The translations under genes and the position numbers were made by a program. DNA of 64,000 bases. It comes from Pomphorhynchus laevis (lineage: Eukaryota > Acanthocephala > Palaeacanthocephala > Echinorhynchida > Pomphorhynchidae). Positions 1,994-64,000 of the stretch are shown one piece after another. The notes beneath the pieces are model-generated. The model searched no databases, was not told where the DNA came from, and saw only the letters and a program-made list of their open reading frames with translations. The number at the start of each line of letters is the position of its first letter. Position 1 is the stretch's first letter. The stretch is taken from NCBI GenBank assembly GCA_012934845.2, contig WNNJ02000282.1, positions 180,044 to 244,043 of the forward strand. The letters run 5' to 3'.

Positions 1994-2045
1994 CTATATT
2001 CTAGATTGTTGAATAAAGCCTTATTTGGTTTATCATTACATAAAA

Positions 2046-9757: not shown

Positions 9758-9970
9758 CAAATAGGAATCCTCCAGTACTCATTTTCGGAAAAACAAAATC
9801 TTTTGTTTATTATAATAATAAATCTCTCTCATTTTTTTAATCTAAAAAAAGTTTGAGATCTAAGATAAATACAATAAATAACTCAAAGCACAATAAATAC
9901 AATCCTCAAAACACAATAAATTAACATACAATCGTCAAGCTTGACACAACACAAACTACAACTTGAAAAT

Positions 9971-11005: not shown

Positions 11006-11223
11006 ATAATTTATTATATTATTTAATATAATAAATATATAAATATATTTATTTATATTTAATTATATAAATTAATATTTATATAATTAAATATTAATTA
11101 ATATAATTAATTAATATTTAATTAATTTTTATTAATTAAATATTTAATGTTGAATATTTAATTCAACATTAAATATTGTTGAATTGCAACAATATTGTTG
11201 AATTACAACAATATAGATACATA
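11006..11223. repeat. A/T-only low-complexity block with nested palindromes
   Basis: Almost every base from 11006 to 11170 is A or T, in ATTAATTA-type runs. 11145-11210 holds overlapping palindromes around TTGAATTGCAACAATATTG. It replaces the RT region expected between the head at 9971 and the tail at 11718. Confidence 0.7.
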
Positions 11224-30536: not shown

Positions 30537-30647
30537 ACAAGGCGACGTTCAATTGTTAGTTTCGATTGTCTTTGTGTCACAAAGTAAGTTGTAATCTTCC
30601 GCGCGAGTGCTCAACCCGGGAAGTACCCTGGGTGTACGACCTTACGT

Positions 30648-33660: not shown

Positions 33661-33730
33661 TTGAATAAAAATTTGCATACACGAGCGAGTATCATCATTT
33701 AGATATATTATTTAGATAGATTATCATCTA

Positions 33731-33763
33731 TCTAAACATTTGTTATATAAACAAATGTTTAGA
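33731..33763. repeat. Unit-junction palindrome, second perfect copy
   Basis: Same 33-nt sequence as 27368-27400. Here the junction is uninterrupted, whereas at 27.4 kb the RLE LINE is inserted beside it. Confidence 0.85.
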
Positions 33764-38266: not shown

Positions 38267-38290
38267 TTATGATCTTTATGCATATATCAA

Positions 38291-42389: not shown

Positions 42390-42770
42390 GAACTCATGAA
42401 AGTGTTTATTATACTGTATATACAAAAATAGTTAATACCTTGTTTAAATCAAAGTAAACTACAATTTACTATTTTACTTATCATAACAAAATTTGATATA
42501 ATCTATCTTGATAATCATGGTTAGATAGATTATCATCTATCCAAACATTTGTTATATAAACAAATTTTTCGATAAATGTTTGTATATACAAACAGTAATT
42601 TACTTATCATAACAAAATTTGCTTTAATTTACTCTAATTTACTTACTTGTATATACAAACATTAATTTACTTATCATAACAAAATTTGCAAAATTCACTC
42701 TAATTTACTTACCATAACAAAATTCGATATCATCTATCTTGATGATCATGATTAGATAGATTATTATCCA
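42390..42770 (+). repeat. Leader with AATTTACTTATCATAACAAA sub-repeats
   Basis: At least four spaced copies of AATTTACTTATCATAACAAA or close variants occur at 42470-42725, interspersed with a degenerate palindrome (42543-42566) and GTTTGTATATACAAAC. The same motif precedes the palindromes elsewhere and recurs at 48165-48186. No gene. Confidence 0.7.
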
Positions 42771-42803
42771 TCTAAACATTTGTTATATAAACAAATGTTT
42801 AGA
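42771..42803. repeat. Unit-junction palindrome, third perfect copy
   Basis: Identical to 27368-27400. It opens the second 4.5-kb A2+A1 repeat. Confidence 0.85.
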
Positions 42804-45800
42804 TTAATGTTTGTATATACAAAAAAGTGAAGGTTTTTTGTATAATCATTTGTTGCATTTTAAAGGTATCAAACATTTGACATGACAAAACATAAATGCA
42901 ACAATTGTTTTGTTATATAATAAACATAAACAAATGTTTTGGCTTAACTTGTTATCCCTGTCAATCTTTGGCAACCAAGATCTACAGTATAAGAACATAG
43001 AAATATAATTCGCGTAAGCTCTAACATAATGACCTAATAATGTAATAATATAATTTTATGCAATGATAATGGTACATAATTAAGTGGTTTTAATAATTTT
43101 CTATTTATTCTTAGTCTAATTTTATTACATTGTTTTAAAGAGTCTTACGAAATGATCGATAATATTTGTCAAACTTTGAATGTTTAAGAAATATTAAAAC
43201 GTTTAATCAAAAAGACATCACCTTTCGAAGTAATACAACATAATTTGACACCATTACGATAATGGTATGTTAGTAGAAAAGAACATTAAAAATATTATAA
43301 AATATTTCAAGCCATAAAGTCTTTTAGATTTTTTTAAACATCAAAATGCTTTTAGAAGATTTAAAAATTCAATATTTTTATAGTTGTTTGAATTTTTTAA
43401 TAACATACATGTTAAACTCATACATGTTTATCAGATGTTCATACAGTAGATACTTTAAATTATTTAATTTATAAAAAATTTGTATAATTATCTAAATAAC
43501 AACGTTAGTTGTTACTTATTATAATAATTGTACTTATTAATAACTATATATATATTGAATAAGTATAAAGAAGTATAAAATTAATTATTTTTATTGTATA
43601 TAACTAAATATATTTTGTATATGTTAAAAAGTACATTTCATTGTATATTATTTAAATTATTTACAAAAATTACATTCATTATGAATAACCGTAGGTTTTT
43701 AATTTATAAAATTTATTTTATCAGTATTACAAATACATTTAGTAACTTGAATTAATAGCAATTTTTAAAATTATTAAATATTTATGCTGATCATTTTAAA
43801 ATTATTAAATTATTGTATAAACTTTATATTTTGAAATTTATTTGTAAATTAATTAAATCATTTCGTAAATATATTTCAGAAATGGTTTTCTAAGTCATTT
43901 TAATTATTATTCTTGATAAATAATTTTTTTTCATATAAAATATAGCACTTTTGTCGTAAATATAGCGCTTTTGTCGTACAAGTTTAATCAAACATATGCA
44001 AATTCAGAAAAAGGATATTTACAGTATTTTGTATTAAGAAAATTATATTGTATAATAGTTTTGTCAAACATTTTGACGATAAGCGTTTTGGTATCAACCA
44101 AAATAACATGTTATTTTTTAGAATTTACTTTTTGTAGACAACATTTTATTCTTAAAAGAATATTTTACATGATTGGTTTCGGTAAAAAAATTGAAGCAAA
44201 TTAAATAATAAAATTCGTCACTGAGCGATCTTAGTAAGTAAGAAATATAACCTTTAGTAACAAGATTGGATTTGCTTTTTTTGTTATAAATTTATTCGAA
44301 AAATAATATTTATTTATTTCGTCAAATTTAATAAATTTGAATTAGTAATTAAAAATATTATCAAATGTTTTATAATATATTAAACATTGAGATCATATAA
44401 TAATGATAATAATTTTATTGAGATCATTTAAATAACGTTTATCAAAGGCGATTAAGGTTCAAAGTGAATCATTTAAACTTATCGTCAAAGTGGATAACTT
44501 TAAAATAGTAATTTTAAAAATAAAAATAATTATTGTATTTCGAATGATCAAATCTTCTAAAATTATATCATTTATTCCATAAATATTTTTTAAAATCATT
44601 AAAATCATTAAAATGATCAAATGATTAATCGTTATAAATCAAATTAAATCATTTATTCAATTATTTATTAAATTGCAAAAAAATACATTTTTTAAAGAAT
44701 CTTACAATTTTATAATTACTCATTGTTTCGTATGTCTTTTTTAAATATTTTGTACTATATGAAATATTTAGAAAATACTATCTAAGAAAATGTCTTTCTA
44801 AATACAATATAGATAACAAAATATCTTTATAACTTTAACGAATTTAAGCATATATTTTTTATTTTGTTTTTAAAGATTGATACGTTTTAATCTTTAAAAC
44901 AAATCATATAACTAAATTGAATGTCTTTTGTTTCTAAACTTTACATTTTAATATTTCCCAATATTTGAATTGATAAGTTTTAATCTTTAAAATAAATTAT
45001 ATAACTAAATTGAATGTCTATTGTTTCTAATAACAAAATTTGATATCATTTGATAACATTTGTTATATAAACAAATGTTTAGATTAATGATTGTATATAC
45101 AAAAAAGTAAAACTGTTTGTATAAGCATTTGTTGCATTAAAAGGTATCAAACATTTGACATGACATATCTATCAGTCAAAACATTTATGTAACAAATGTT
45201 TTGTTATATTATAAACATAAACAAATGTTTTGGCTTAACGTGTTCCCTGTCAATCTTTTGACACCAAGATCTACAGTATTACAGCAAAGGAATATAATTC
45301 GCGTAAGCTCTAACATAATAATGTAAGATTATAACATTATATAATAATTTTATAATATAATTAAATGCAATGATTATGGTACATAATTTATTGATTTTTA
45401 TTATTTTTTTTTATTTATTTGTAGCCTCAAATTTGTTTTAATTACTTTGATTTTAACAATCTAACTAAATGATTGTTAATATTGTCAAACTTTGAATGGT
45501 TTAAAAATATTTAAACGTTAAATCAAGAATACAACTTTCGAAGAAATACAACATAATTGGAGACCATTACGATAATGGTCTGTTAGTACAAAACATTAAA
45601 AACATTCTATTTGATTGCATCTGTGAGCTGAAATTGTTCCGATTGTGGCATGATATTATCCTCACAGGTATTGATCTTATTTTTGATACGGCAGGACGCT
45701 ACTAATCAGTCCGGGTGAATCTCATCAAATGAGACCCACCCGGACTGGGTCAGTCAATGTAGGCTGACCCAGTCCCTGTAGGTGAGCTGACCCAGCCAGT

Positions 45801-47303
45801 GTAGGTATGGATAGGCCAATGTAGGCTTACCCAGACCTACATTTCACGTTTCTGCACTTAATTATCTGCTTTCTTTGTTGCCTGATGCTGATCGGATTTG
45901 AACTCAGGAAGTCTGTATCGCGATTCAACTTATCATCCACTAAGCTGGCTGCACCAGTGGTGTAGATATACATTTATGTATATTACCTTTTTTCTGAATA
46001 TTACTTTATAATTGAAAAACTATTATAAAATATTTCAAGCCCTAAACGTCTTTGACATATTTTTTATCATCAAAATGCTTTTAGGAAATTTAAAAATTCA
46101 AAATATATATTGTTGTTTGAATTTTATAATTACATTTGTTAAATTCATACGTTTTTTATTAAAACATGTATGAATTTAATTTTATATATATTTTTTATTC
46201 AATTAAAGGCTAACAACAAAATTTAAAATTAATTAAATTATATAAAATAAAATTTACATAATTATTAATTATTTGATTTAGTTTCAAAGATGACGTTCTT
46301 TATAAACAAAACAAAAACTTTTGAAATTAACAATTGTTATTGAATTAGTAATTAAAAAATTTTTAAATTATTAAATGTTTTTTTTATTATCAAATGTTTT
46401 ATAATATATAAAACATTAAGATCATTCAAATAAGGATAATAATTATATTGAGATCATTTAAATTACTTTTATCATAACGATAAACGTCCAAAAAATAAAA
46501 AAGTAATCATTTAGATAGTAATTAAATTACTGCTTTATTTACATTTTCAATAGTAATTTAAAAAATAAAAACAATTATTGTATTTCGAATGATTAAATCT
46601 TTTAATCAGTTATGTAATTCATGATATTTATTCCAAATATATCATTATAAATCATTTGAATCATTAAAAAAATCAAATGATTAATCATTACAAATTAAAC
46701 AAAATTATTTATTTAATTATTTATTTAACCTAGACAATTATACATCATTTTTCTTTAAAGAATATTATCTTACATTTATATTATTACTCATTGTTTCGTA
46801 TAAGTGTCTTTTTTAAATAGTTTTTACTATATAAAATATTTAGAAAATACTATATTATTGTATTTAAAAAATGTCTGTCTGAATACAATATAGATAACAA
46901 AATATCATTATAAATTTAACAAATTTTAGCATATATTTTTTATTTTGTTTTTAAAGATTGATACGTTTTAATCTTTAAAACAAATTATATAATTTTATTA
47001 AATGTCTTTTCTTATTAAACTTTACATTTAAAAGTTGATAACTATTTGAATTGATAAATATATTTCATAATCAATATTTATTATTCAAACTTTACTATTA
47101 TTGACTTTACTATTTAAAAATCTAAATAATTTTTACTTGCAAAGTAAACGTTGTAGAACCTTAAAAATTTAAAATAATTAGAAACACTGATCGAAAAAAA
47201 CGAAACAAATCATCTTTTTAATTACAATTGAAAATCAGTAAAATAATACCTGCAAATCAGTAAAGTTTTAAACTTACCTTGTTGACTTTATTTTAACATT
47301 GTT
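42804..47303 (+). repeat. 4.5-kb A2+A1 repeat, second copy
   Basis: Nearly identical to 33764-38266. Homology ends at 47303, about 25 bp before the CxxC ORF would start; instead a minus-strand ORF follows. It includes the palindrome 45055-45080 and the tRNA-like module at 45613. Confidence 0.9.
45613..45957 (-). other. Structured module with tRNA-like head, copy 4
   Basis: Same A-box-like and B-box-like motifs and hairpins as 36576-36920, from which it differs by only a few bases. Confidence 0.55.
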
Positions 47304-47350
47304 ATTTGATTTTTTTTATGTTTTTTAACCAAGAAAAAAATTATTACAAA

Positions 47351-48091
47351 TTAGAGTAAGTATAATGAATGATCAGATTCTAAATTCTCACCGATCGGCA
47401 AGGATTTTGTAAGCTCCGGCTTATTACTGTACTTTTTAGAGTTATTTCTTTGTGATCGCTGATATTCTTCGCTATCATGTTCATGCGATCCATGAGCGTT
47501 GCTGTGACGATTATCTTCCGATTCGGTTGATGTATTCGCGGCCGCGGTGGTGGCGGTTGTAATGAATTCGTTATTTCTTCGAACCATGTTTGAGCAACTC
47601 TTCAAAATTGATGCGATATTACAACTTTTATTCGTAATTAAGTGATTGGTGGTATTTGTTGTCACTATCATTTGTACTGCCGCTGGTGCGTCGTCATGTT
47701 GATCATGCTCAACACCTTGAACATCAACAACATTGTCGGGTAGTATAAGATCATCACACATGTTGAGAAACTTATGAATGATCTGGTTGAGATGATCATT
47801 ACAATTGTCGGGTGTATGATCGGCAACACTAGATTGGCTGCAATTCATCGTGGAAATTCCGGTTTTACCATTGTCAATCATAGTTTCTTCTTGGTTACTA
47901 CTCGATGATACAAAGAAAGGCGCAGCAGATTCGTCGGCACCGGGTTCGTTGATAGAACCAGAAGCAAATTTTGCAAATTCATTCGATGGATTGCAATCAA
48001 GCCCATATTTAGGATCATATGATGTAAATGACATCATTGGTATTGTTGAATTGCTGTTAAGTATAAATGATGACGATTCAAACTCCAATCC
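47351..48091 (-). CDS. Unrecognised Ser/Asn-rich protein or exon, about 245 residues
   Basis: The minus frame is open from a possible splice acceptor (CAACAG|GGATTGG, AG at 48092-48093) to TAA 47351-47353. There is no in-frame ATG near the start (the first Met pair is about residue 18), which favours an internal or last exon. The product is hydrophilic, with DHDD/HEHDSEE-type acidic-His runs, Ala/Thr repeats and KKYSNKPELTKS near the end. Codon composition is balanced, unlike the AT-rich surroundings. It lies between an A1 unit and a palindrome copy (48111-48140), where other units have the CxxC ORF. No family is recognised; it could be a host exon or a captured fragment. Confidence 0.5.
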   Translation of the reverse strand, partial: GLEFESSSFILNSNSTIPMMSFTSYDPKYGLDCNPSNEFAKFASGSINEPGADESAAPFFVSSSSNQEETMIDNGKTGISTMNCSQSSVADHTPDNCNDHLNQIIHKFLNMCDDLILPDNVVDVQGVEHDQHDDAPAAVQMIVTTNTTNHLITNKSCNIASILKSCSNMVRRNNEFITTATTAAANTSTESEDNRHSNAHGSHEHDSEEYQRSQRNNSKKYSNKPELTKSLPIGENLESDHSLYLL

Positions 48092-48191
48092 CTGTTGGGA
48101 TGATCCTTACAAACATTTGTTATAAAAACAAATGTTTAGATAAATGTTTGTATATACAAACATTAATTTACTTATCATAACAAAATTTGCT

Positions 48192-48197
48192 TTTATT
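48192..48197 (-). terminator. Poly(A) signal downstream of the ubiquilin-like ORF
   Basis: AATAAA on the minus strand, about 75 nt after the stop codon at 48273. It is the only such signal between the stop and the AT-rich repeat, and fits a short 3' UTR. Confidence 0.6.
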
Positions 48198-48272
48198 GCA
48201 TATATTCTGGTTACCGTTATCAAAACTGTTGAATAAGTTTAAGAAATTTACATCAATTAAAACTATAGTCAA

Positions 48273-49706
48273 TCAATCAAAATCTTCATTACGTTCCACA
48301 GCCATTTTTGCGTCCCCCATAGATGCAGCAAGCTCTTCCAGATTAGTATCACGGCTATGGAATCCCAATGTCTGCATTTGTACAAGTTCGGATGCATAAA
48401 GATGTTCTTGAGTTTGGTTTGGTTGTTGATTTGTCGGCTGATGTTGCTGGAGATGAAGACGATCTAATGGTTGAAACAACGAAGCAGTATAATCTTGATT
48501 TGAGTATTGTAAATTTTGAAATACTGTTGTTGCATAAGCTGTTTGTCTATTGCTTGGTGATCGAAAAGAATCCACATCAGATGAAGTAGGTTGACTATTC
48601 ATTTGATTATCGACTAGACCGCTTATATTTGAAGATATCAACTGTGAATATACTTGTGGGGATGTGTCCCTAAGACGAATTAGATTCTTTAGAATTTGTA
48701 CAATCGTCCTCAATGCTCGAGTATTTGTGCATAGAGCACAAATTTCAGGTATTGGCCACTGACTCATAAACTCATGAATTACACGATGTACTTGTTCTCT
48801 TTGTCCTTCGTCCTGTATAAATTCATATGTACGCAGCAGATTAAGAAGAATCTTAAGCAGATTAAGTAGAGTACCAGGATCGCAAAGAGAATTATTCATA
48901 TTTGGGTTAAAACTGGATGCCCGCAACATGTCGAATAACATGAGAGGATTTTCAGCATCGACTACTAATAATTGTTGAGGGTTCATCGTAGAATACCGAT
49001 TAGTGTTTTCGCTTGACGTAGATTGCAAAGGCGACTCTAAACGGTTTGAATTAGATACATATGAACTAGACGAATCGATTTGAAATGTAGTATTCTGAGA
49101 TGCCACCGGGTTTGGCAGGAGGTTTGTATTTTCAGTTCCTACTTGACTAGTGTTAGCTGTACCAGATGAACTAGAATAAGTATTCAGAGGGTTATCGCCA
49201 AACTGCTCATGTGCCACATTAAGCATTGGTTCTTGAAAATCGCGATAAATTCTCTGTCGAACTTTATATCCGCTCGGTAATCTCTCAAGGTTAATCAGGG
49301 CTCTGTCATGGTTTCTCGTAATTTCCTGTATAGTTGTAGGAATACGAATCATTTCCATTGTTTGACACATTAAATCCGGATTGTTAACGAATTGTGAAAC
49401 CTCGTGGTTCTGCTCCCTCACTCTTTGCATTTGTGGATTGTTAAGCTTAATTGAACTAAGCAATGCAGGATTACTCATAAGTCTTTGAGCCAAATTATTA
49501 CTTAGAAGGTTTTGAACTGCATGTGGATTTGTCTGAATAGTGCCAAAAATATTTTGTTGTATTTCAGTACAATTTGAATTTCCAAATGGAAGGTTCAAAA
49601 ATGGTGCAAGTGTTAATCTGGATAATGTTGCAGTTCCATAGGTATGTTGATCAATATTCGGTTGAAGCGATATCAACCCCTCCTTAATTGTTGGTGATTG
49701 CTGAAG
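48273..49706 (-). CDS. UBQLN: Ubiquilin-like segment (STI1 repeats and UBA; no UBL), fused in frame to an RLE LINE
   Basis: The last about 475 residues of a 1,031-codon minus frame are ubiquilin-like. The STI1 core is unmistakable (about 49490-49195): LMSNPALLSSI, FVNNPDLMCQTMEMIR, QEITRNHDRALINLERLPSG, FQEPMLNVAHEQFG. A second, weaker STI1-like stretch follows (NPQQLLVVDAENPLMLFDML ... LLNLL). A C-terminal UBA domain (LVQMQTLGFHSRDTNLEEL, about 48400-48285) ends the protein. Ubiquilins shuttle ubiquitinated clients to the proteasome through an N-terminal UBL. That UBL is absent, and its place is taken by retroelement sequence. There are no introns in this stretch, which fits a retrocopy or an intron-poor gene. 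The exact border (49690-49960) is not visible. Confidence 0.87.
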   Translation of the reverse strand, partial: LQQSPTIKEGLISLQPNIDQHTYGTATLSRLTLAPFLNLPFGNSNCTEIQQNIFGTIQTNPHAVQNLLSNNLAQRLMSNPALLSSIKLNNPQMQRVREQNHEVSQFVNNPDLMCQTMEMIRIPTTIQEITRNHDRALINLERLPSGYKVRQRIYRDFQEPMLNVAHEQFGDNPLNTYSSSSGTANTSQVGTENTNLLPNPVASQNTTFQIDSSSSYVSNSNRLESPLQSTSSENTNRYSTMNPQQLLVVDAENPLMLFDMLRASSFNPNMNNSLCDPGTLLNLLKILLNLLRTYEFIQDEGQREQVHRVIHEFMSQWPIPEICALCTNTRALRTIVQILKNLIRLRDTSPQVYSQLISSNISGLVDNQMNSQPTSSDVDSFRSPSNRQTAYATTVFQNLQYSNQDYTASLFQPLDRLHLQQHQPTNQQPNQTQEHLYASELVQMQTLGFHSRDTNLEELAASMGDAKMAVERNEDFD

Positions 49707-52700
49707 TGACAAAGAAGCATTATTTGATTGTTTAGATGTTGAGTGATATGCCGAAGGTCGTCGTGGAGACATGAGTTGCAGGACAGGCATGTCAACCTCA
49801 GAATGGTCGCCTTTGACGACGGAAGCTGACCGAATATTGGAGTCATGAACTATCTCAACTGACTGGGCCTCGGGCTGTGCAAGGTTGCTCAAAGAAAAGA
49901 GTCGCGGAGATGGGTCGTCACAAAATCCAAGACTTTTCTCTAGTAAGGGTTGGCCCATCTCGTCAAGACTTTTGAGGATCGCTTTAGCATTTCCTCTCAT
50001 CAGTGCGACGGACAAGCGCTGAAATAACTGACCCGCTGTGCTACAATACGGGGTACCGTTTCTACATGACATAGAACGAGCAATGAAACGAATTAGCTTT
50101 TCCCCTTGGGGGTTCCATCCTCCGTAAGTTTCAACAACTGCTGCCGTAAAACTGTATCCATTCTCCTCTAATTTGCGTTTATATTTCCTTTCCTTGACAC
50201 AGGTGGCATACTTGCTTGCGGCATAGCCAGGGATCTCAGAAGCCATGGAAATATAAGCATTTTGTTGAGGGTTAGTTACGGCAAAATCAACTGCTAAAGG
50301 AGGGTCCTTATAAAATAGAATGTCCGCCGGTCTCTCTCGCAAACCACGAATAAGGTTGGGTACCTCCTTTGCCACCCTCAATCCAGCAGAAACCGCTGCT
50401 TGAAAGACTGTATCCCTCAAGCTATCATGTCGAATTCCAGGGTGGCCTCCAAACTGACATGTTAAGGCGTGGAAGCCGAATTTGTCTGCCATCCTAAGGC
50501 AGCGTCTGCATCGATAATCACTGTTCCAGAGAGACAACCCTAACCAAAGACGTAGTAGCACAACGAATTCATTTGGTGCCAAGTTCATATGTGTGGCTTT
50601 GCTAGGGACGGCCTGTAACCAAGCACACGCGTGTGGGCATGAAACTGCCAATAATCGGGCAGTATTGAAGCGATCGGCATTCTCCAATAGCCTGCTGCGC
50701 GACACTTCGTCAATGTGACAAGATAATCCTCGTTGATTTGTTTGCGGATTGCCTACATGTTGCGGAATAATAGATTTAACGAATTCGTACCCAGGGAAAG
50801 TTAAAGGGTCAAGATTTAATTGGCTAGCGACAGTGTCTACACTAGACAGGAAGGCTGCCTGAGAGTGTTGGAAGCAGCTTCGAAGGCCCAGTCCTCCCAT
50901 CTTCAGCGGTAAGCAAGCTTGCATCCACGCCCACTTATCGGGTTGAATAGAAGTGATATTGCTAAAACACTTCAATATCAAGCGGTCGAACAAACGGAAA
51001 AACTCTTCGGCGAAGGCGGGGTCTATAGTGCGCATTAAATGGTTTACCCGTGGAGCGGATGCGCAGCTACGAAGCAGGATGAAAGCAACTTGTGGGTCAG
51101 GGAGATTTTCGAGCGAGTCCAGAGTTTGACGCAGGGATGGTAGAACAACATCGACAAGGTATCCCGAACAATGTTCCTTAGACCCGATGGGACTTCCAAG
51201 AATTGTAAAGTTTTTTGTGGTGTTGACCAATGTGATCCATGGGCATCTGTTCTTTATCAAGTCGACCTTGTCTTCCCTACCAATTACTTCGGTTTTTTTT
51301 CCAGTTAATAGACAGTCCAATCGCAGGAAAATTAGCAGCAAGACGAGCCAGAGCCTCGCCCACCGCAATAGGAGTACCGCCGATTATTCCGTCGTCGAGG
51401 TACCACCTATTTAAGCTGACACCTTCAATCTCCGATATCTGGACCACAATCGGATCAATCGCCAGGCAAAATAGAACTGGACCAAGAGGATCTCCTTGTT
51501 GTACCCCTCTTCGAGACTGAAGAGGTTTCAGGCTACCGAACCGAAGGCTTGAGGTAGTGCCGTAGCACCATGATGTCCAACGACTAATTTCTGGAAAATT
51601 CTTATCGATCGCGTTGACGAAGGAATCCCGGTTCAGCGTGTTAAAAGCATTAGCCAAGTCGATTTTAGCCCAAACCCAATTAACATTTTGATCATGAAGT
51701 TGTTGTAGCCGACGTGCTTGATGTACTATCTGTTCCATTCCGTTTGGCGTCGCTACACCGAGCTGGTGCGGATGGAGGGATTCGGCAAATCGCTGTCGAA
51801 GTTTGGAGCAAATACACTTAGCGCAAAGACGACGTAATGTCTCCCCAATGGCAATGGGGCGGATCCCTCCATCTGGTTTGTTCAATGCCATGAGATTAGC
51901 ACCGGCGACAAAGGGCACGAGGTCTTTCGGGAGAGTACCAGCGATCATGTTGTTGACTAGTGATGTTAGGCGTTGAAGCAAAACCCCGTGATCTACCGAC
52001 AGCATATCTCGAATATGTTCTGCCCTCAAACCTAAACAGCCAGGAGAGGAAGAGGGTGGGAATGATGATACTGCGGCCTCAACTATGTCTGAGTCAACCG
52101 ACAAGGGGGTATTCAAAGATGGCTGTCCAGGACTTTGGAGAACATCATGTAAGGGGTGTAGCTCTGTCAGTTTACCGCGTAAAGATTCTGAAAATTCGCA
52201 TGCACTATTCGACGTAAGGCGGCGCATCGCTTTTCCGAAATTGCCATTTCTCGCCAATTCGATGACTTCCATAAATTCATTTTTCTTATCATTAGTTCCT
52301 CTGAATTTCCTGGATGATCGAAGCCCCGAAGAGGAAAGGCAATCACGCTCTCTTCCATTTTCGAATTTGTCTATAAGCGCGTTGATATTAGATCTAGTGT
52401 TGTCTCCGGCATGGTGCCGACCTGAGGAAGTCTGTAGGCATAGCTTCGGAAAGCACAGCAAACGCTCCCAATCGTTGGATGAATTTGAGCACAATGCCTC
52501 TAGAATTAAAGAGGAAAAAACATTGGCAACTCGGCGGCGAAGATTCCAAGGAATGTGCTTGATCGTGTTAACTGGTTCCATCCAAACCCTATGAAGAAGC
52601 TCGAAGGATCTCTTTTGATTTTCGCAGCAGGAACTGTCTATCTTTTCAAACTGAAACGATGTCTTCGAGGTGTTCTCGTTAGCTTTTAAAAACTCAGGTA

Positions 52701-52860
52701 TTGTGTCAGTTGATGCGATAACGTTGTGAGAGCTGGCTGTCGGTAGATGTCCTGATCCTGAGCAGCGCAAGTTCACAGGTCCGTGTACCCGAAGATGACC
52801 TGATGCGTTAAGGCGAAACGATCCGCCACAGACTGCGCAACTAGCCGTATTCGCTTGCAT
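49707..52860 (-). pseudogene. RLE LINE polyprotein: zinc finger, RT, restriction-like endonuclease (one frameshift)
   Basis: ATG 52860 gives a head with CAVCGGSF ... HLRVH ... C, a zinc-finger-like motif unlike the CXC head of the other RLE elements. RT follows: LNKPDGGIRPIAIGE, motif A KIDLANAF (D401), GVQQGDPLGP and WYLDD (487-490). At the 8-nt homopolymer 51293-51300 the frame shifts by one. Reading continues in 51368-48273 with the thumb, zinc knuckle C287-x2-C290-x9-H300-x3-C304, RHDSLRD, and nuclease core D349 (RPADILF) and D361 (LAVDFAV), then K-rich KERKYKRK. Without the homopolymer change, RT, nuclease and ubiquilin would form one frame of about 1,528 codons. Confidence 0.88.
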
Positions 52861-53001
52861 GTTATCCCAAGCTCGGTTTTGTATTAATTAATTGTAAGCC
52901 GTTGGTTCGAAGCTGATTATGTTTTGCTTGTATAGTTTGTTTCGTGTGTATATTAATTGTAAGTACTTTATTAATCAATTCTTTTTTTAACGTCTTTTTT
53001 T
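49707..53001 (-). mobile_element. RLE LINE with complete 5' end, 3' end joined to ubiquilin-like sequence
   Basis: The minus-strand 5' terminus (52960-53001) matches that of the intact RLE LINE (about 30748-30797): a T/A-rich end with TTTTTTAACG and an ACTTTA-TTAATCAAT stretch. It abuts satellite DNA exactly (AATTAGTATAAATGCG at 53002). No 3' UTR, oligo-A or TSD is seen on the other side; coding sequence runs straight into ubiquilin. Confidence 0.8.
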
Positions 53002-56000
53002 AATTAGTATAAATGCGTACAAATTGAAATGTAATTAAGAGTGTAAAAAAGAGTGTAAATAAATGCGTAAAAAAGTGCAATTTAAAGTGTTAAAAAAGTG
53101 TAAAGAAAAGTGTAAAAAGGAGTGTGAACTAGAGTGTAAGTAATAGTGTAAAAAAAAGTTTAAAAAAAAGTGTAACGAAAGAGAAAATAATATTGTAAAT
53201 TTCAGCGTAAATTAAAGTGTTAAAAGAGAGCAAAAAAAGTGTAAAAAATAGTATAAAAATAGTAAAAAATGTATTAAAAAGTGGTAATAATAGTGTAAAA
53301 ATAGTTTAAAAAAAAGTGAAAAAAGAGTAAAAAAGGTAAAAAAAGTGACGAAAATAATGCTAAAATGAGTGTAAAATATGGTGTAAAAATATGTTGAAAA
53401 AAGTGTAAAAAAGTGTAAATTATGGTGTAAAAATTTATGTAAACAAAATTGCAAATAAAAGTGTATAAATGCGTTTAGAAAATAGTGTAAAAAGGGGTGT
53501 AAACAAAAGGGTAAAACGACTTGAAAAAATGGTGTAAAAAATAGCAATAATAAAAGTGTTTAAACAGAGCAAAAAAAGTGTAAAACATAGTATAAAAAAA
53601 GGTTAATAAATGTGTTAACAAAGTGGAAATAAAAGTGTAAAAAAAGTGTAAATAACATTGTAAAAAAGGGTAAAAAATTGATTATAATAGTGACTATAAA
53701 TAAAAGTGTAAAAAAAGTGTTAGTAAATGAGTAAATGAAAGTGTATATAATGTTGTAAATAATAGTGTAAATAATAGTTTTAACAAATTAGTATAAATGC
53801 GTAAAAATTGAAGTGTAATTAAGAGTGTAAAAAACGGTGTTAATAAATGTGTAAAAAAGTGCAATTTAAAGTGTTAAAAAAGTGTAAAAAAAGGTGTAAA
53901 AAGGAGTGTGAAATAGAGTGTAAGTAATAGTGTAAAAAAATAGTTTAAAAAAAAGTGTAACGAAGGAGAAAATAATATTGTAAATTTCAGCGTAAATTAA
54001 AGTGTTAAAAGAGAGCAAAAAAAGTGTAAAAAATAGTATAAAAAATAGTAAAAAATGTATTAAAAAAGTGGAAATAATAGTGTAAAAATAGTTTACATAA
54101 CAGTGTAAAAAAAGGTATAAAAAGTGACGAAAATGATGTATAAATAAGTGTAAAATACAGTGTAAAAATATGTTGAAAAAAGTGTAAATAAAAGTGTAAG
54201 TAATGGTGTAAAAATTGATGTAAACAAAAGTGCAAAAAAAGTGTAAAAATGCGTTTGGAAAATAGTGTAAATAAGAGTGTATATAAAATTGTAAATAAAA
54301 GTGAAAAATATTGTGTAAAAATTAAAACTAAAAAAGTGTTAAAAAAGTGAAATTAAAGTGTAAAAAATAGTATTAAAATAGTAAAAAATGTATTGAAAAA
54401 TTAGAAATAATAGTGTAATAATGATTAAAAAACAGTGTAAAAAATAGGCAAAATCAAAATATAAAAAGTGAAAAAAAGTGGGTAAATGAGTGTTTAAAGA
54501 AGTGTAAAAAATGTGTAAAGATATCTTGAAAAAAGTGTAAATAATGGTGTAACAAATGATGTAAATAAAAGTGCAAATAAAAGTGTATAAATGCATGTAG
54601 AAAATAGTGTAAAAAAGAGTGTAATTAAAAGTGTAAATAATAGCGAAAAAAATGGCGAAAATTATAGCAATTTAAAAAAGTGTTAAAACAGAGCAAAACG
54701 AGTGTAAAAAATAGTATAAAAAAGGTTTAATAAATGTGTTAACAAAGTGGAAATAAAAGTGTAAAAAAAGTGTAAATAACATTGTAAAAAAAGGTAAAAA
54801 ATTGATTATATAAGTGACTATAAATAAAAGTGTAAAAAAAGTGTTAGTAAATGAGTAAATGAAAGTGTATAAAATGTTGAAACAATAGTGTAAATAATAG
54901 TTTTTACAAATTAGTAAAAATGCGTAAAAATTGAAGTGTAATTAAGAGTGTAAAAAAGAGTGTAAAAAAATGCGTAAAAAAGTGCAATTTAAAGTGTTAA
55001 AAAAGTGTAAAGAAAAGTGTAAAAAGGAGTGTGAACTAGAGTGTAATTAATAGTGTAAAAAATAGTTTAAAAAATAGTGTAACGAAAGAGAAAATAATAT
55101 TGTAAATTTCAGCGTAAATTAAAGTGTTAAAAGAGAGCAAAAAAAGTGTAAAAAATAGTATAAAAAATAGTAAAAAATGTATTAAAAAAGTATAAATAAT
55201 AGTGTAAAAAAAGTTTAAAAAACAGTGTAAAAAAGAGTAAAAAAGGTATAAAAAGTGACGAAAATAATGTTAAAATGAGTGTAAAATACAGTGTAAAAAT
55301 ATGTTGAAAAAAGTGTAAAAAAGTGTAAATTATGGTGTAAAAATTGATGTAAACAAAATTGCAAATAAAAGTGTATAAATGCGTTTAGAAAATAGTGTAA
55401 ACAAGAGTGTAAATAAAAGTGTAAAAAAAGTGTAAATAACATTGTAAAAAAGGGTAAAAAAGTGATTATAATAGTGACTATAAATAAAAGTGTAAAAAAA
55501 GTGTTAGTAAATGAGTAAATGAAAGTGTATATAATGTTGTAAATAATGGTGTAAATAATAGTTTTAACAAATTAGTATAAATGCGTAAAAATTGAAGTGT
55601 AATTAAGAGTGTAAAAAAGGGTGTTAATAAATGTGTAAAAAAGTGCAATTTAAAGTGTTAAAAAAGTGTAAAGAAAAGTGTAAAAAGGAGTGTGAACTAG
55701 AGTGTAAGTAATAGTGTAAAAAATAGTTTAAAAAATAGTGTAACGAAAGAGAAAATAATATTGTAAATTTCAGCGTAAATTAAAGTGTTAAAAGAGAGCA
55801 AAAAAAGTGTAAAAAATAGTATAAAAAATAGTAAAAAATGTATTAAAAAAGTATAAATAATAGTGAAAAAAAATTTAAAAAACAGTGTAAAAAAGAGTAA
55901 AAAAGGTATAAAAAGTGACGAAAATAATGTTAAAATGAGTGTAAAATACAGTGTAAAAATATGTTGAAAAAAGTGTAAAAAAAGTGTAAATTATGGTGTA

Positions 56001-59000
56001 AAAATTGATGTAAACAAAATTGCAAATAAAAGTGTATAAATGCGTTTAGAAAATAGTGTAAAAAGGGGTGTAAATAAAAGTGTAAAAAAAGTGTAAAAAA
56101 CATTGTAAAAAAGGGTAAAAAAGTGATTATAATAGTGACTATAAATAAAAGTGTAAAAAAAGTGTTAGTAAATGAGTAAATGAAAGTGTATATAATGTTG
56201 TAAATAATGGTGTAAATAATAGTTTTAACAAATTAGTATAAATGCGTAAAAATGGAAGTGTAATTAAGAGTGTAAAAAAGGGTGTAAATAAATGTGTAAA
56301 AAAGTGCAATTTAAAGTGTTAAAAAAGTGTAAAGAAAAGTGTAAAAAGGAGTGTGAAATAGAGTGTAAGTAATAGTGTAAAAAAATAGTTAAAAAAAGTG
56401 TAACGAAGGAGAAAATAATATTGTAAATTTCAGCGTAAATTAAAGTGTTAAAAGAGAGCAAAAAAAGTGTAAAAAATAGTATAAAAAATAGTAAAAAATG
56501 TATTAAAAAAGTGGAAATAATAGTGTAAAAATAGTTTACATAACAGTGTAAAAAAAGTAAAAAAGGTATAAAAAGTGACGAAAATGATGTATAAATAAGT
56601 GTAAAATACAGTGTAAAAATATGTTGAAAAAAGTGTAAATAAAAGTGTAAGTAATGGTGTAAAAATTGATGTAAACAAAAGTGCAAAAAAAGTGTAAAAA
56701 TGCGTTTGGAAAATAGTGTAAATAAGAGTGTAAATAAAATTGTAAATAAAAGTGAAAAATATTGTGTAAAAATTAAAACTAAAAAAGTGTTAAAAAAGTG
56801 AAATTAAAGTGTAAAAAATAGTATTAAAATAGTAAAAAATGTATTGAAAAATTAGAAATAATAGTGTAATAATGATTAAAAAACAGTGTAAAAAATAGGC
56901 AAAATCAAAATATAAAAAGTGAAAAAAAGTGGGTAAATGAGTGTTTAAAAAAGTGTAAAAAATGTGTAACGATATCTTGAAAAAAGTGTAAATAATGGTG
57001 TAACAAATGATGTAAATAAAAGTGCAAATAAAAGTGTATAAATGCATGTAGAAAATAGTGTAAAAAAGAGTGTAATTAAAAGTGTAAATAATAGCGAAAA
57101 TAATGGCGAAAATTATAGCAATTTAAAAAAGTGTTAAAACAGAGCAAAACGAGTGTAAAAAATAGTATAAAAAAGGTTTAATAAATGTGTTAACAAAGTG
57201 GAAATAAAAGTGTAAAAAAGTGTAAATAACATTGTAAAAAAAGGTAAAAAATTGATTATATAAGTGACTATAAATAAAAGTGTAAAAAAAGTGTTAGTAA
57301 ATGAGTAAATGAAAGTGTATAAAATGTTGAAACAATAGTGTAAATAATAGTTTTTACAAATTAGTAAAAATGCGTAAAAATTGAAGTGTAATTAAGAGTG
57401 TAAAAAAGAGTGTAAAAAAATGCGTAAAAAAGTGCAATTTCAAGTGTTAAAAAAGTGTAAAGAAAAGTGCAAAAAGAGTGTGAACTAGAATGTAAGTAAT
57501 AGTGTAAAAAATAGTTTAAAAAATAGTGTAACGAAAGAGAAAATAATATTGTAAATTTCAGCGTAAATTAAAGTGTTAAAAGAGAGCAAAAAAAGTGTAA
57601 AAAATAGTTAAAAATAGTAAAAAATGTATTAAAAAAGTATAAATAATAGTGTAAAAAAAGTTTAAAAAAACAGTGTAAAAAAGAGTAAAAAAGGTATAAA
57701 AAGTGACGAAAATAATGTTAAAATGAGTGTAAAATACAGTGTAAAAATATGTTGAAAAAAGTGTAAAAAAAGTGTAAATAATGGTGTAGAAATTGATGTA
57801 AACAAAAGTGCAAATAAAAGTGTAAAAATGCGTTTAGAAAATAGTGTAAACAAGAGTGTAAACAAAAGGGTAAAACGACTTGAAAAAATGGTGTAAAAAA
57901 TAGCAATAATAAAAGTGTTTTAAAAGAGCAAAAAAAAGTGTAAAACATAGTATAAAAAAGGGTTAATAAATGTGTTAACAAAGTGGAAAAAAAAGTGTAG
58001 ATATAGTGTAAAAAACATTGTGAAAAAGGGTAAAAAAGTGATTATAATAGTGACCATAAATAAAAGTGTAAAAAAACTGTTAGTAAATGAGTAAATGAAA
58101 GTGTATATAAAGTTGTAAATAATGGTGTAAATAAGAGTTTTATCAAATTAGTATAAATGCGTAAAAATGGAAGTGTAATTAAGAGTGTAAAAAAGGGTGT
58201 AAATAAATGTGTAAAAAAGTGCAATTTAAAGTGTTAAAAAAGTGTAAAGAAAAGTGTTAAAAGGAGTGTGAAATAGAGTGTAAGTAATAGTGTAAATAAT
58301 AATTTAAAAAAGTGTTACAAAAGAAAAAAAATATTGTTAATGTAAGCGTAAATTAAAGTGTTTAAAAAGAGCAAAACAAGTGTAAAAAAATAGTATAAAA
58401 AAATAGAACAACATGTATTAAAAAAGTAGAAATAATAGTGTAAAAATAGTTAAAATAAGAGTGTAAAAAAGAGTCAAAAAAGGTAAAAAAATGTGACAAT
58501 AATGGGGTTAAAATGAGTGTAAAATACAGTGTAAAAAAATGTGACAATAATGGGGTTAAAATGAGTGTAAAATACAGTGTAAAAAAATGTTAAAAAAATG
58601 TAAATAAAAGTGTATATAATGGTGTAAATAGTAATGTAAACAAAAGTGCAAATGAAAGTGTATAAATGCGTTTAGAAAATAGTGTAAATAAGAGTGTAAA
58701 TAAAATTGTAAATCAAAGTGAAAATAATGGTGTAAAAATTAAAACAAAAAAAGTGTTAAAAAAGTGAAATTAAAGTGTAAAAAATAGTATTTAAATAGTA
58801 AAAAATGTATTAAAAAATTGGAAATAATAGAGTAATAATAATTAAAAAACAGTGTAAAAAAAGGCAAAAATAAAATATAAAAAGTGAAAAAAAGTTGGTA
58901 AATGAGTGTTTAAAAAAGTGTAAAAAATGTGTAAAGATATCTTGAAAAAAGTGCAAATAAAAGTGTAAATAATGGTGTAAAAAATGATGTAAATAAAAGT

Positions 59001-62000
59001 GCAAATAAAAGTGTATAAATGCATGTAGAAAATAGTGTAAAAAAGAGTGTAATTAAAAGTGTAAATAATAGCGAAAATAATGGCGAAAATTTTAGCAATT
59101 TAAAAAAGTGTTAAAACGGAGCAAAACGAGTGTATAAAATAGTATTAAAAAGGTTTAATAATAGTGTTAACAAAGTGGAAATAAAAGTGTAAAAAAGTGT
59201 AAATAACATTGTAAAAAAGGGTAAAAAAGTGATTATAATAGTGACTATAAATAAAAGTGTAAAAAAAGTGTTAGTAAATGAGTAAATGAAAGTGTATATA
59301 ATGTTGTAAATAATGGTGTAAATAGTAGTTTTAACAAATTAGTATAAATGCGTACAAATTGAAGTGTAATTAAGAGTGTAAAAAAGAGTGTAAATAAATG
59401 CGTAAAAAAGTGCAATTTAAAGTGTTAAAAAAGTGTAAAGAAAAGTGTAAAAAGGAGTGTGAACAAGAGTGTAAAAAATAGTGTAAAAAATAGTTTAAAA
59501 AATAGTGTAACGAAAGAACAAATAATATTGTAAATTTCAGCGTAAATTAAAGTGTTAAAAGAGAGCAACAAAAGTGTAAAAAATAGTATAAAAAATAGTA
59601 AAAAATGTATTAAAAAGTGGAAATAATAGTGTAAAAATAGTTTAAAAAAAAGTGTAAAAAAGAGTAAAAAAGGTAAAAAAAGTGACGAAAATAATGCTAA
59701 AATGAGTGTAAAATACAGTGTAAAAATATGTTGAAAAAAGTGTAAAAAAAGTGTAAATTATGGTGTAAAAATTGATGTAAACAAAATTGCAAATAAAAGT
59801 GTATAAATGCGTTTAGAAAATAGTGTAAAAAGGGGTGTAAATAAAAGTGTAAAAAAAGTGTAAATAACATTGTAAAAAAGGGTAAAAAAGTGATTATAAT
59901 AGTGACTATAAATAAAAGTGTAAAAAAAGTGTTAGTAAATGAGTAAATGAAAGTGTATATAATGTTGTAAATAATCGTGTAAATAATAGTTTTAACAAAT
60001 TAGTATAAATGCGTAAAAATGGAAGTGTAATTAAGAGTGTAAAAAAGGGTGTTAATAAATGTGTAAAAAAGTGCAATTTAAAGTGTTCAAAAAGTGTAAA
60101 GAAAAGTGTACAAAGGAGTGTGAACTAGAGTGTAAGTAATAGTGTATAAAATAGTTTAAAAAATAGTGTAACGAAAGAGAAAAAAATATTGTAAATTTCA
60201 GCGTAAATTAAAGTGTTAAAAGAGAGCAAAAAAAGTGTAAAAAATAGTAAAAAAATAGTAAAAAATGTATTAAAAAAGTGGAAATAATAGTGTAAAAATA
60301 GTTTAAATAACAGTGTAAAAAAGAGTAAAAAAAGGTATAAAAAGTGACGAAAATAATGTTAAAATGAGTGTAAAATACAGTGTAAAAATATGTTGAAAAA
60401 AGTGTAAAAAAAGTGTAAATAATGGTGTAGAAATTGATGTAAACAAAAGTGCAAATAAAAGTGTAAAAATGCGTTTAGAAAATAGTGTAAACAAGAGTGT
60501 AAACAAAAGGGTAAAACGACTTGAAAAAATGGTGTAAAAATAGCAATAATAAAAGTGTTTTAAAAGAGCAAAAAAAAGTGTAAAACATAGTATAAAAAAG
60601 GGTTAATAAATGTGTTAACAAAGTGGAAAAAAAAGTGTAGATATAGTGTAAAAAACATTGTGAAAAAGGGTAAAAAAGTGATTATAATAGTGACCATAAA
60701 TAAAAGTGTAAAAAAACTGTTAGTAAATGAGTAAATGAAAGTGTATATAAAGTTGTAAATAATGGTGTAAATAAGAGTTTTATCAAATTAGTATAAATGC
60801 GTAAAAATGGAAGTGTAATTAAGAGTGTAAAAAAGGGTGTAAATAAATGTGTAAAAAAGTGCAATTTAAAGTGTTAAAAAAGTGTAAAGAAAAGTGTTAA
60901 AAGGAGTGTGAAATAGAGTGTAAGTAATAGTGTAAATAATAATTTAAAAAAGTGTTACAAAAGAAAAAAAATATTGTTAATGTAAGCGTAAATTAAAGTG
61001 TTTAAAAAGAGCAAAACAAGTGTAAAAAAATAGTATAAAAAAATAGAACAACATGTATTAAAAAAGTAGAAATAATAGTGTAAAAATAGTTAAAATAAGA
61101 GTGTAAAAAAGAGTCAAAAAAGGTAAAAAAATGTGACAATAATGGGGTTAAAATGAGTGTAAAATACAGTGTAAAAAATGTTAAAAAAATGTAAATAAAA
61201 GTGTATATAATGGTGTAAAAAGTAATGTAAACAAAAGTGCAAATGAAAGTGTATAAATGCGTTTAGAAAATAGTGTAAATAAGAGTGTAAATAAAATTGT
61301 AAATCAAAGTGAAAATAATGGTGTAAAAATTAAAACAAAAAAAGTGTTAAAAAAGTGAAATTAAAGTGTAAAAAATAGTATTTAAATAGTAAAAAATGTA
61401 TTAAAAAATTGGAAATAATAGAGTAATAATAATTAAAAAACAGTGTAAAAAAAGGCAAAAATAAAATATAAAAAGTGAAAAAAAGTTGGTAAATGAGTGT
61501 TTAAAAAAGTGTAAAAAATGTGTAAAGATATCTTGAAAAAAGTGCAAATAAAAGTGTAAATAATGGTGTAAAAAATGATGTACAAAAAAGTGCAAATAAA
61601 AGTGTATAAATGCATGTAGAAAATAGTGTAAAAAAGAGTGTAATTAAAAGTGTAAATAATAGCGAAAATAATGGCGAAAATTTTAGCAATTTAAAAAAGT
61701 GTTAAAACGGAGCAAAACGAGTGTATAAAATAGTATTAAAAAGGTTTAATAATAGTGTTAACAAAGTGGAAATAAAAGTGTAAAAAAGTGTAAATAACAT
61801 TGTAAAAAAGGGTAAAAAAGTGATTATAATAGTGACTATAAATAAAAGTGTGAAAAAAGTGTTAGTAAATGAGTAAATGAAAGTGTATAAAATGTTGTAA
61901 ATAATGGTGTAAATAATAGTTTTAACAAATTAGTATAAATGCGTAAAAATTGAAGTGTAATTAAGAGTGTAAAAAAGAGTGTAAAAAAATGCGTAAAAAA

Positions 62001-64000
62001 GTGCAATTTAAAGTGTTAAAAAAGTGTAAAGAAAAGTGTAAAAAGGAGTGTGAACTAGAGTGTAAAAAATAGTGTAAAAAATAGTTTAAAAAATAGTGTA
62101 ACGAAAGAACAAATAATATTGTAAATTTCAGCGTAAATTAAAGTGTTAAAAAAGAGCAAAAAAAGTGTAAAAAATAGTATAAAAAATAGTAAAAAATGTA
62201 TTAAAAAGTGGAAATAATAGTGTAAAAATAGTTTAAAAAAAAGTGTAAAAAAGAGTAAAAAAGGTAAAAAAAGTGACGAAAATAATGCTAAAATGAGTGT
62301 AAAATACAGTGTAAAAATATGTTGAAAAAAGTGTAAAAAAAGTGTAAATTATGGTGTAAAAATTGATGTAAACAAAATTGCAAATAAAAGTGTATAAATG
62401 CGTTTAGAAAATAGTGTAAAAAGGGGTGTAAATAAAAGTGTAAAAAAAGTGTAAATAACATTGTAAAAAAGGGTAAAAAAGTGATTATAATAGTGACTAT
62501 AAATAAAAGTGTAAAAAAAGTGTTAGTAAATGAGTAAATGAAAGTGTATATAATGTTGTAAATAATGGTGTAAATAATAGTTTTAACAAATTAGTATAAA
62601 TGCGTAAAAATTGAAGTGTAATTAAGAGTGTAAAAAAGGGTGTTAATAAATGTGTAAAAAAGTGCAATTTAAAGTGTTAAAAAAGTGTAAAGAAAAGTGT
62701 AAAAAGGAGTGTGAACTAGAGTGTAAGTAATAGTGTAAAAAATAGTTTAAAAAATAGTGTAACGAAAGAGAAAATAATATTGTAAATTTCAGCGTAAATT
62801 AAAGTGTTAAAAGAGAGCAAAAAAAGTGTAAAAAATAGTATAAAAAATAGTAAAAAATGTATTAAAAAAGTGGAAATAATAGTGTAAAAATAGTTTAAAT
62901 AACAGTGTAAAAAAGAGTAAAAAAAGGTATAAAAAGTGACGAAAATAATGTTAAAATGAGTGTAAAATACAGTGTAAAAATATGTTGAAAAAAGTGTAAA
63001 AAAAGTGTAAATAATGGTGTAGAAATTGATGTAAACAAAAGTGCAAATAAAAGTGTAAAAATGCGTTTAGAAAATAGTGTAAACAAGAGTGTAAACAAAA
63101 GGGTAAAACGACTTGAAAAAATGGTGTAAAAAATAGCAATAATAAAAGTGTTTAAACAGAGCAAAAAAAGTGTAAAACATAGTATAAAAAAGGGTTAATA
63201 AATGTGTTAACAAAGTGGAAAAAAAAGTGTAAATATAGTGTAAAAAACATTGTAAAAAAGGGTAAAAAAGTGATTATAATAGTGACCATAAATAAAAGTG
63301 TAAAAAAACTGTTAGTAAATGAGTAAATGAAAGTGTATATAAAGTTGTAAATAATGGTGTAAATAAGAGTTTTATCAAATTAGTATAAATGCGTAAAAAT
63401 GGAAGTGTAATTAAGAGTGTAAAAAAGGGTGTAAATAAATGTGTAAAACAGTGCAATTTAAAGTGTTAAAAAAGTGTAAAGAAAAGTGTTAAAAGGAGTG
63501 TGAAATAGAGTGTAAGTAATAGTGTAAATAATAATTTAAAAAAGTGTTACAAAAGAAAAAAAATATTGTTAATGTAAGCGTAAATTAAAGTGTTTAAAAA
63601 GAGCAAAAAAAGTGTAAAAAAATAGTATAAAAAATAGTAAAACATGTATTAAAAAAGTAGAAATAATAGTGTAAAAATAGTTAAAATAAGAGTGTAAAAA
63701 AGAGTAAAAAAAGGTAAAAAAATGTGACAATAATGGGGTTAAAATAAGTGTAAAATACAGTGTAAAAATATGTTAAAAAAGTGTAAATAAAAGTGTATAC
63801 AATGGTGTAAAAAGTAATGTAAACAAAAGTGCAAATGAAAGTGTATAAATGCGTTTAGAAAATAGTGTAAATAAGAGTGTAAATAAAATTGTAAATCAAA
63901 GTGAAAATAATGGTGTAAAAATTAAAACAAAAAAAGTGTTAAAAAAGTGAAATTAAAGTGTAAAAAATAGTATTAAAATAGTAAAAAATGTATTAAAAAA
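53002..64000 (+). repeat. GTGTAAA-type satellite, about 11 kb, with higher-order repeat near 2.6 kb
   Basis: The array is built of short A-rich units (A2-4 GTGTAAA A/T) about 11-13 bp long and is strikingly poor in C on the plus strand. A diagnostic GGAGTGTGAA block recurs at about 53119, 53902, 55025, 55687, 56348, 57473 (variant), 58263, 59454, 60114, 60903, 62045, 62705 and 63495. The intervals fall into classes of about 660, 785 and 1125-1190 bp. From 57.5 kb onward they cycle as 660 + 789 + 1142 (about 2.59 kb). Phe/Leu/Thr-rich minus-strand ORFs are low-complexity by-products. The array runs off the right edge. Confidence 0.93.

Follow-up and report, generated by a model that had tools for sequence, protein, structure and literature searches.

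How does the C-terminal half of a ubiquilin come to stand at the end of a retrotransposon protein? The question is raised by a 64,000-nucleotide (nt) stretch of the genome of Pomphorhynchus laevis, a thorny-headed worm and fish parasite (contig WNNJ02000282.1, positions 180,044 to 244,043; hereafter the window, which is C1701:180044-244043 in the 249.4 Mb assembly of 3,242 contigs that we searched). On its minus strand, a long interspersed nuclear element (LINE) of the restriction-like endonuclease (RLE) type runs without a stop codon into ubiquilin sequence. A first-pass annotation had offered three explanations: a composite retrotransposon with an acquired proteostasis adaptor, a host fusion gene, or a deletion between a LINE and a neighbouring ubiquilin gene. 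We conclude that the element is very probably a composite non-long terminal repeat (non-LTR) retrotransposon into which half of a ubiquilin was spliced and which later spread: its copies are dispersed, carry the same in-frame join and are often 5'-truncated, and their ubiquilin part is intron-less and starts at an exon boundary. The other two proposals are excluded by copy number.

The LINE-ubiquilin join recurs across the genome

Taken alone, the window is compatible with a local deletion, an assembly chimera or a single LINE-driven host fusion gene, and the frame break of its copy (see below) fits decay. However, when the assembly was searched with a query of 190 amino acids (aa) spanning the join (1,026 candidates, 150 scored), 134 of the 150 listed matches, located on many contigs and reaching down to 62% identity, crossed the join (from query position ≤102 to ≥142). 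The genome search for further copies that the annotation had proposed thus yields at least 134 join-crossing matches among those listed. Its recurrence in many other copies shows that the join is no artefact of the window contig, and the sequences flanking the element differ between most of the copies that we fetched; deletion, chimera and fusion gene, ruled out by copy number, are left with practically no weight. Ten of the 16 listed matches that fail the crossing cut-off have a ubiquilin match directly adjoining, C1022 has one 3.6 kb away, and C2301 lies at a contig end (by eye). The remaining four (C2740, C2129, C1605 and C1701:31201) each end 4–12 residues beyond the join, with no neighbouring ubiquilin match among the matches listed.

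A second query, covering the ubiquilin end (495 aa, including 29 aa of the linker that precedes it), gave at least 87 genome matches, a lower bound with 86 of 723 candidates scored. Seven of the 87 have an open frame of 1,537–1,538 aa with no stop within the match. From the first 42 rows of this search, we fetched all but the window itself and C1505, which gave 40 copies, a sample biased to young ones. They are 99.4–99.97% identical to the window copy along the longest match, a similarity that is partly a selection artefact because high-ranking matches were fetched. Thirteen of the 40 extend uninterrupted to the 5' end, and 24 are 5'-truncated; L030 and L040 are cut off by a contig end, and L013 retains the 5' end but carries an internal deletion.

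Could ubiquilin retrocopies instead have dispersed independently, with one of them landing beside a LINE? About a dozen of the 87 ubiquilin-end matches do start inside the ubiquilin part, and P. laevis gene models join ubiquilin pieces to other sequence. 5' truncation or frame breaks should also produce starts of this kind, however, and the contigs of two such gene models, P0005 and P0006, have the same base counts as those of the LINE-ubiquilin copies L013 and L044. What rules the explanation out, leaving it highly improbable, is that each of the 40 fetched copies has LINE or linker sequence ahead of its ubiquilin part (the latest start is at element position EL 3381, with ubiquilin from EL 3628).

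Layout of the element and state of its reading frame

The element, as delimited by homology to the fetched copies, has its 3' end near 48235 and its 5' end somewhere in ~52912-52993. Its features, all on the minus strand except for the unstranded flanking repeat, are listed in the direction of its transcription (ORF, open reading frame; RT, reverse transcriptase; UBA, ubiquitin-associated):

48235..52990, minus: composite LINE-ubiquilin element, ~4.75 kb (extent of homology to fetched copies)
51277..52887, minus: ORF with zinc finger and RT, first Met at 52860
52762..52839, minus: N-terminal Cys/His zinc-finger-like motif CxxC...HxxxH...C (translation; motif by eye)
51295..51882, minus: RT domain RVT_1 with YLDD motif (Pfam, E 4.3e-17)
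51293..51300, minus: A8 homopolymer, frame break of the window copy
48273..51383, minus: ORF of 1036 aa with RT end, RLE, linker and ubiquilin tail; stop TGA at 48273-48275
49971..50675, minus: CCHC zinc knuckle and RLE region (RPAD-x11-D...K), inside a 517-aa match to the relative P0123; residues by eye
49674..49970, minus: linker between RLE and ubiquilin, a LINE tail without known domain, also in older copies
48276..49673, minus: captured ubiquilin C-terminal half, its first base aligned to the first base of a parental exon
49311..49517, minus: UBQLN1 (PF23195) region (Pfam, E 8.4e-18)
49185..49412, minus: STI1-I region (alignment with ubiquilins; borders by eye)
48633..48986, minus: STI1-II region (alignment with ubiquilins; borders by eye)
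48276..48410, minus: UBA-like C-terminus with LGF motif retained (weak phmmer matches)
48235..48275, minus: stop codon and short 3' tail, where copies end variably without poly(A)
48110..48197, unstranded: flanking repeat outside the element, 94% identical to 42542-42629, holding AATAAA (48192-48197)

The annotation had placed the whole protein in one reading frame. This is correct from the RT end through the RLE to the ubiquilin tail, a stretch free of stops, and it describes the family, as five of the 13 copies with a complete 5' end have 1,537 open codons. It does not describe the window copy, in which the ORF with zinc finger and RT and the ORF with RLE and ubiquilin overlap in different frames, meeting at the A8 run. 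This run is readable in 25 of the 40 copies and is A7 in 17, A8 in seven and A6 in one; A8 in some copies could be a sequencing error. The family thus has open members, and the window copy is one whose frame is broken.

By their domain order, family members (not the window copy) resemble RLE-type non-LTR retrotransposons: a single ORF with an N-terminal zinc finger, a central RT and a C-terminal zinc knuckle and endonuclease. A predicted CCHC knuckle and PD-(D/E)xK-like endonuclease follow the RT, which itself is weakly similar to R2 chains of the PDB (E 1.5e-8). We take RPAD-x11-D...K to be the RLE catalytic motif, and the assignment of the CCHC and PD-(D/E)xK-like residues is likewise presumed.

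The transition into the ubiquilin part is also visible in base composition: third-position GC is 0.35–0.55 in the LINE part (windows to codon 480) and 0.17–0.38 in the ubiquilin part, with the drop near 49.7 kb. Within the tail, the second STI1 repeat is placed by alignment and a low-confidence structure model. The model, built from 30 sequences, has two helical blocks with predicted local distance difference test (pLDDT) values mostly of 60–80 and a C-terminal three-helix stretch at ~55–70; overall it is of low confidence (mean pLDDT 55, predicted template modelling score 0.24). It fits STI1 and UBA domains, being agreement and no proof.

The ubiquilin part passed through spliced RNA

The annotation had suggested looking for an intact ubiquilin; an intron-containing parental gene that has kept the N-terminal ubiquitin-like (UBL) domain is present on contig C1375. 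Its UBL exons match at 74145-74249, 68514-68633 and 68394-68477, the last two being split by a short intron (a 15-residue gap). The UBL exon 5' of the following long intron ends ACACAG/GTAATT (the slash marks the exon border), and the next exon, C1375:59963-60181, follows after ~8.2 kb of intron; it starts TCTTAG/GTATCGCAACAACCG (TCTTAG/GTATCG...) and ends GTGATTGAG/GTAATA. The homology of the element begins at the first base of this exon, with no clear likeness to the preceding intron, and continues past the exon end directly into the next coding stretch without an intron. Accordingly, the UBL is missing from the element, as the annotation had stated: homology begins at the exon after the UBL exons, and Pfam gives no UBL match in the ORF at 48273-51383. 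The exon-boundary start together with the missing intron, one of each being read directly at C1375, indicates that the ubiquilin part passed through spliced RNA and lost at least one intron on the way. We found no further ubiquilin gene parts in C1375:63000-68394. A 107-aa stretch of the parental protein P0003 has no C1375 match among the best 150 of 252 candidates, which is as expected, on this indirect evidence, if the parental gene holds another intron.

The window tail is 74% identical to P0003 over 263 columns, and the two have the STI1 region in common. Unlike this host protein, the tail lacks the UBL and at least one intron, is fast-evolving and is fused to a LINE protein. With eight other ubiquilins as outgroup, 155 sites were polarised: the change is confined to the element at 18 and to the parent at seven, and at 56 neither sequence agrees with the majority of the outgroup.

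We propose the following route. An RLE-type LINE would have lain upstream of, or within, the long ubiquilin intron, and a read-through LINE transcript may have been spliced, from a donor close to the LINE ORF's end, onto the next ubiquilin exon downstream. The LINE's own machinery would then have reverse-transcribed the resulting intron-free RNA, yielding a single predicted protein, zinc finger - RT - RLE - linker - STI1 - STI1 - UBA, that would be translated through the join. The chimera probably spread both long ago, as suggested by older copies whose identity across the join falls to 62%, and recently, as suggested by the many near-identical copies.

An intron-free ubiquilin part would likewise result if the RT had switched template from LINE RNA to a spliced ubiquilin mRNA, or if the two RNAs had been trans-spliced, and trans-splicing to an internal acceptor is compatible with the exon-boundary start as well. 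Template switching, however, need not break at the first base of an exon, as the observed join does, and the Rpt3 tail of P0123, a related LINE protein described below, likewise starts at an apparent exon start in P. laevis. We therefore regard both routes, taken together, as unlikely, and keep to splicing of a read-through transcript in cis.

Relatives of the element

Among the matches listed, the closest LINE relative is P0123, encoded on a 4,852-base contig and 43% identical to the element over 517 aa (RLE ORF) and 41% over 477 aa (RT ORF). Like the element, P0123 ends in a tail from a host gene; this one matches Rpt3/PSMC4, an ATPase of the 26S proteasome, instead of ubiquilin (193 aa, E 4.9e-98). 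The Pfam AAA profile is matched only from position 23 of 131, and the Rpt3 tail presumably lacks the Walker A motif. Residues 157-202 of P0123 form a PHD finger near the N-terminus, perhaps another captured domain.

The P. laevis exon matching the start of the Rpt3 part appears, by the AG and the in-frame stop just upstream, to begin within one codon of that start; we assume that an intron at this place is common to P. laevis and the P0123 host. An Rpt3-tailed LINE family was not seen in P. laevis itself: contig C399 carries all matches to the Rpt3 part at 76–89% identity, and the remaining 19 of the 23 do not exceed 68%.

We aligned 123 relatives, the best 120 of 759 and three further matches. 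Of these, 113, P0123 included, reach the end of the model that includes the RLE, and their tails beyond it have a median length of 12 aa (95th percentile, 74). The five longest-tailed relatives besides P0123 (P0127, P0132, P0138, P0163 and P0190) have just the RT, P0127 with a below-cut-off Sgf11 match, and no other host C-terminal domain; the rest were judged from precomputed Pfam matches alone, which give Sgf11 and SAND for P0156 and P0230. A Diplonema protein named SLACS is among the relatives. Groups of RLE-type elements include R2, NeSL, CRE/SLACS and Utopia.

Unlike known RLE-type elements, the one described here, assigned to this type by its domains and motifs and not by a tree, has a ubiquilin C-terminal tail and no single target site in the copies examined. 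A ubiquitin-like-pathway domain added to an RLE LINE has a precedent in NeSL families and a Utopia element, which have an Ulp1-like protease (PMC4640811); there, however, the domain is an N-terminal protease, as opposed to a C-terminal adaptor acquired as exons. Literature searches covering open-licence papers gave, among the papers listed, no description of a LINE-ubiquilin fusion. We class the element among the RLE LINEs, with a tail of a new kind.

Selection on the LINE and ubiquilin parts

Pooled over copies, the ratio of non-synonymous to synonymous polymorphism (pN/pS) relative to three old copies (L049-L051), a measure that includes neutral decay of the old copies, is 0.43 in the RT end, 0.35 in the RLE region and 0.90 in the linker. 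In the ubiquilin part it is 1.28 in the N-part, 0.47 in STI1-I, 0.77 in the middle, 0.99 in STI1-II, 0.74 in the Q-rich region and 0.70 in the UBA region. On the master branch (the window compared with codons at which the three old copies agree), the ratio of substitution rates (dN/dS) is 0.30 (bootstrap 95% interval 0.13–0.67) for RT end, RLE and linker together, and 1.07 (0.55–2.99) for the ubiquilin tail. The underlying non-synonymous to synonymous counts, 15:14 versus 37:9, differ (Fisher P 0.011). Between parental exon and window, dN/dS is 1.54, the excess over 1 being not significant (Fisher P 0.52). By these sequence comparisons, the endonuclease part is under purifying selection and the tail as a whole is without visible amino-acid constraint. 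Most variants in the ubiquilin part of the 40 young copies occur once and change the amino acid (singletons: 38 non-synonymous, 11 synonymous and two stops), as expected of dead insertions.

Is the tail then merely a passenger, captured by splicing and serving as 3' sequence of the RNA with no role as protein? A master-branch dN/dS of about 1, pN/pS values of 1.28 and 0.99 in the N-part and STI1-II, and the weakness of the UBA match agree with this. Conversely, the tail frame is open across 476 codons, and simulated neutral drift rarely leaves it stop-free (18 runs per 500 at 90% aa identity, 6 at 85%, 1 at 80%, 0 at 75%, 1 at 70% and 0 at 61%); pN/pS is 0.47 in STI1-I and 0.70 in the UBA region, the counts being small; and copies with as little as 62% identity across the join still retain the tail. 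The chance that it is a passenger is, in our estimation, not far short of even. We read the tail as probably translated and fast-changing, with room left for a passenger. If it acts as protein, its most likely role would be that of a C-terminal proteostasis tether whose UBA and STI1 domains stabilise or chaperone the LINE protein, a suggestion that we hold tentatively. More speculative, and rather unlikely as it stands, is the wider proposal that splicing into 3' exons of host genes repeatedly supplies this lineage of RLE LINEs with C-terminal tails of ubiquitin-proteasome origin, ubiquilin in the present element and Rpt3 in P0123; such tails might be kept as a device that protects, chaperones or routes the LINE protein, with their fast evolution directed against host control.

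Insertion of the copies

Insertion probably proceeds by target-primed reverse transcription, as suggested by variable 5' truncation (24 of 40 copies), ragged 3' ends clustered at the ubiquilin stop codon, the lack of poly(A) and short duplications in some copies. The 3' ends lie from ~6 nt before the stop codon to ~40 nt after it and carry several different short tails. The absence of oligo-A that the annotation reported is true of the window copy and usual in the 40 copies. Its poly(A) signal, by contrast, does not belong to the element: the AATAAA lies ~38 nt beyond the element end, in a flanking repeat also found at 42542-42629, and the copies end before it. As to target duplications, also said to be absent, none is seen by eye around the window copy, whereas short ones occur in some other copies.

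Flanks are AT-rich and differ between most of the 40 copies, which do not display the site-specific insertion that is common, not universal, among RLE-type elements. L028 and, by eye, L016 lie inside a AGTGTAAA satellite. L023 and L024 have at least 76 bases of 3' flank in common, with different 5' flanks and 5' ends, by duplication or 3' transduction, and L028 and L029 have the first 17 nt of 3' flank in common.

Several of our results weigh against a spliced composite element that spread in this manner. In C1375:63000-68700 no LINE with a donor site was found, just a chance-level 24-aa LINE match (E 0.75). Pfam gives no UBA match in the tail, and the phmmer matches to UBA chains of the ubiquilin family are weak (E 0.011–0.14). 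The master-branch dN/dS of the tail gives no sign of overall purifying selection, and the selection tests cover the RT end onward, the RT domain proper lying in the other frame and outside them. The high similarity of the fetched copies carries the selection bias given above. Direct repeats of at least 9 nt near the insertion ends, present in eight of the 40 copies as compared to 2.9% of mismatched flank pairs (binomial P 1.6e-5), speak in favour of it, but the test behind them is loose: the 3' border was misplaced by the script in L009, L030, L032 and L042, L030 and L040 had no 5' flank, and the other 32 copies have no flank match of this length.

Pieces of the tail in P. laevis gene models

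Besides P0003, nine P. laevis proteins contain part of the tail joined to other sequence. In P0005 that sequence includes a PI3/4-kinase domain, in P0029 methyltransferase-type domains by the precomputed list, and in P0006 an HSP90-like ATPase match below the cut-off. We compared 14 diagnostic sites, namely those covered by two or more gene-model sequences. The window's derived residue is present in every covering model at five of them (P-H, A-V, L-R, A-V and Q-H); at four more it is missing from just one or two. At another four, most models have the parental or another residue, and that of the window is common to P0005 and P0006, at one site also P0008, so that the window falls into a younger subfamily; at the remaining site (W-V) it is found in none of the models. 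The tail-bearing gene models look like LINE copies that were drawn into the models or exonised. The contigs of P0005 and P0006 (189709 and 258628 bases) match in base count those of copies L013 (C2832) and L044 (C2437), be it through annotation contamination or exonisation.

Surroundings of the element in the window

Just 3' of the element lies a 251-aa ORF (47351-48106, minus strand) with a below-cut-off DUF4456 match (0.0035). On the other side, ~50 bases from the LINE 5' end, starts a degenerate, strongly strand-skewed satellite (53040-64000, period 12, unit AGTGTAAAAAA), which also hosts at least one other copy, L028. The region ~14-47 kb consists largely of repeated blocks, including a direct repeat of 4.6 kb (33686-38277 and 42725-47314, 97.7% identity). 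A further RLE-type LINE, without ubiquilin tail, has an ORF of 1,019 aa and is accompanied by fragments of a relative (27489-30548, minus strand, and 8891-11026, plus strand). The window also contains an inverted pair of LINE pieces (2037-3560 and 4960-6485, 94% identity).

Significance

The P. laevis genome is rich in LINEs (PMC7310846; PMC7943196), and one of its retrotransposons appears to have recruited a host protein as a new tail. This is an unusually clear case of the gain of a host domain by a retrotransposon, with a start at an exon boundary, a missing intron and an in-frame join, and the capture can be traced through younger and older copies alongside the surviving parental gene. For those using P. 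laevis gene models, it carries the caution that ubiquilin-like exons may be transposon sequence. The related element with a different tail from the proteasome pathway suggests that capture can recur, and together they make it testable why ubiquitin-pathway domains occur in LINE proteins.

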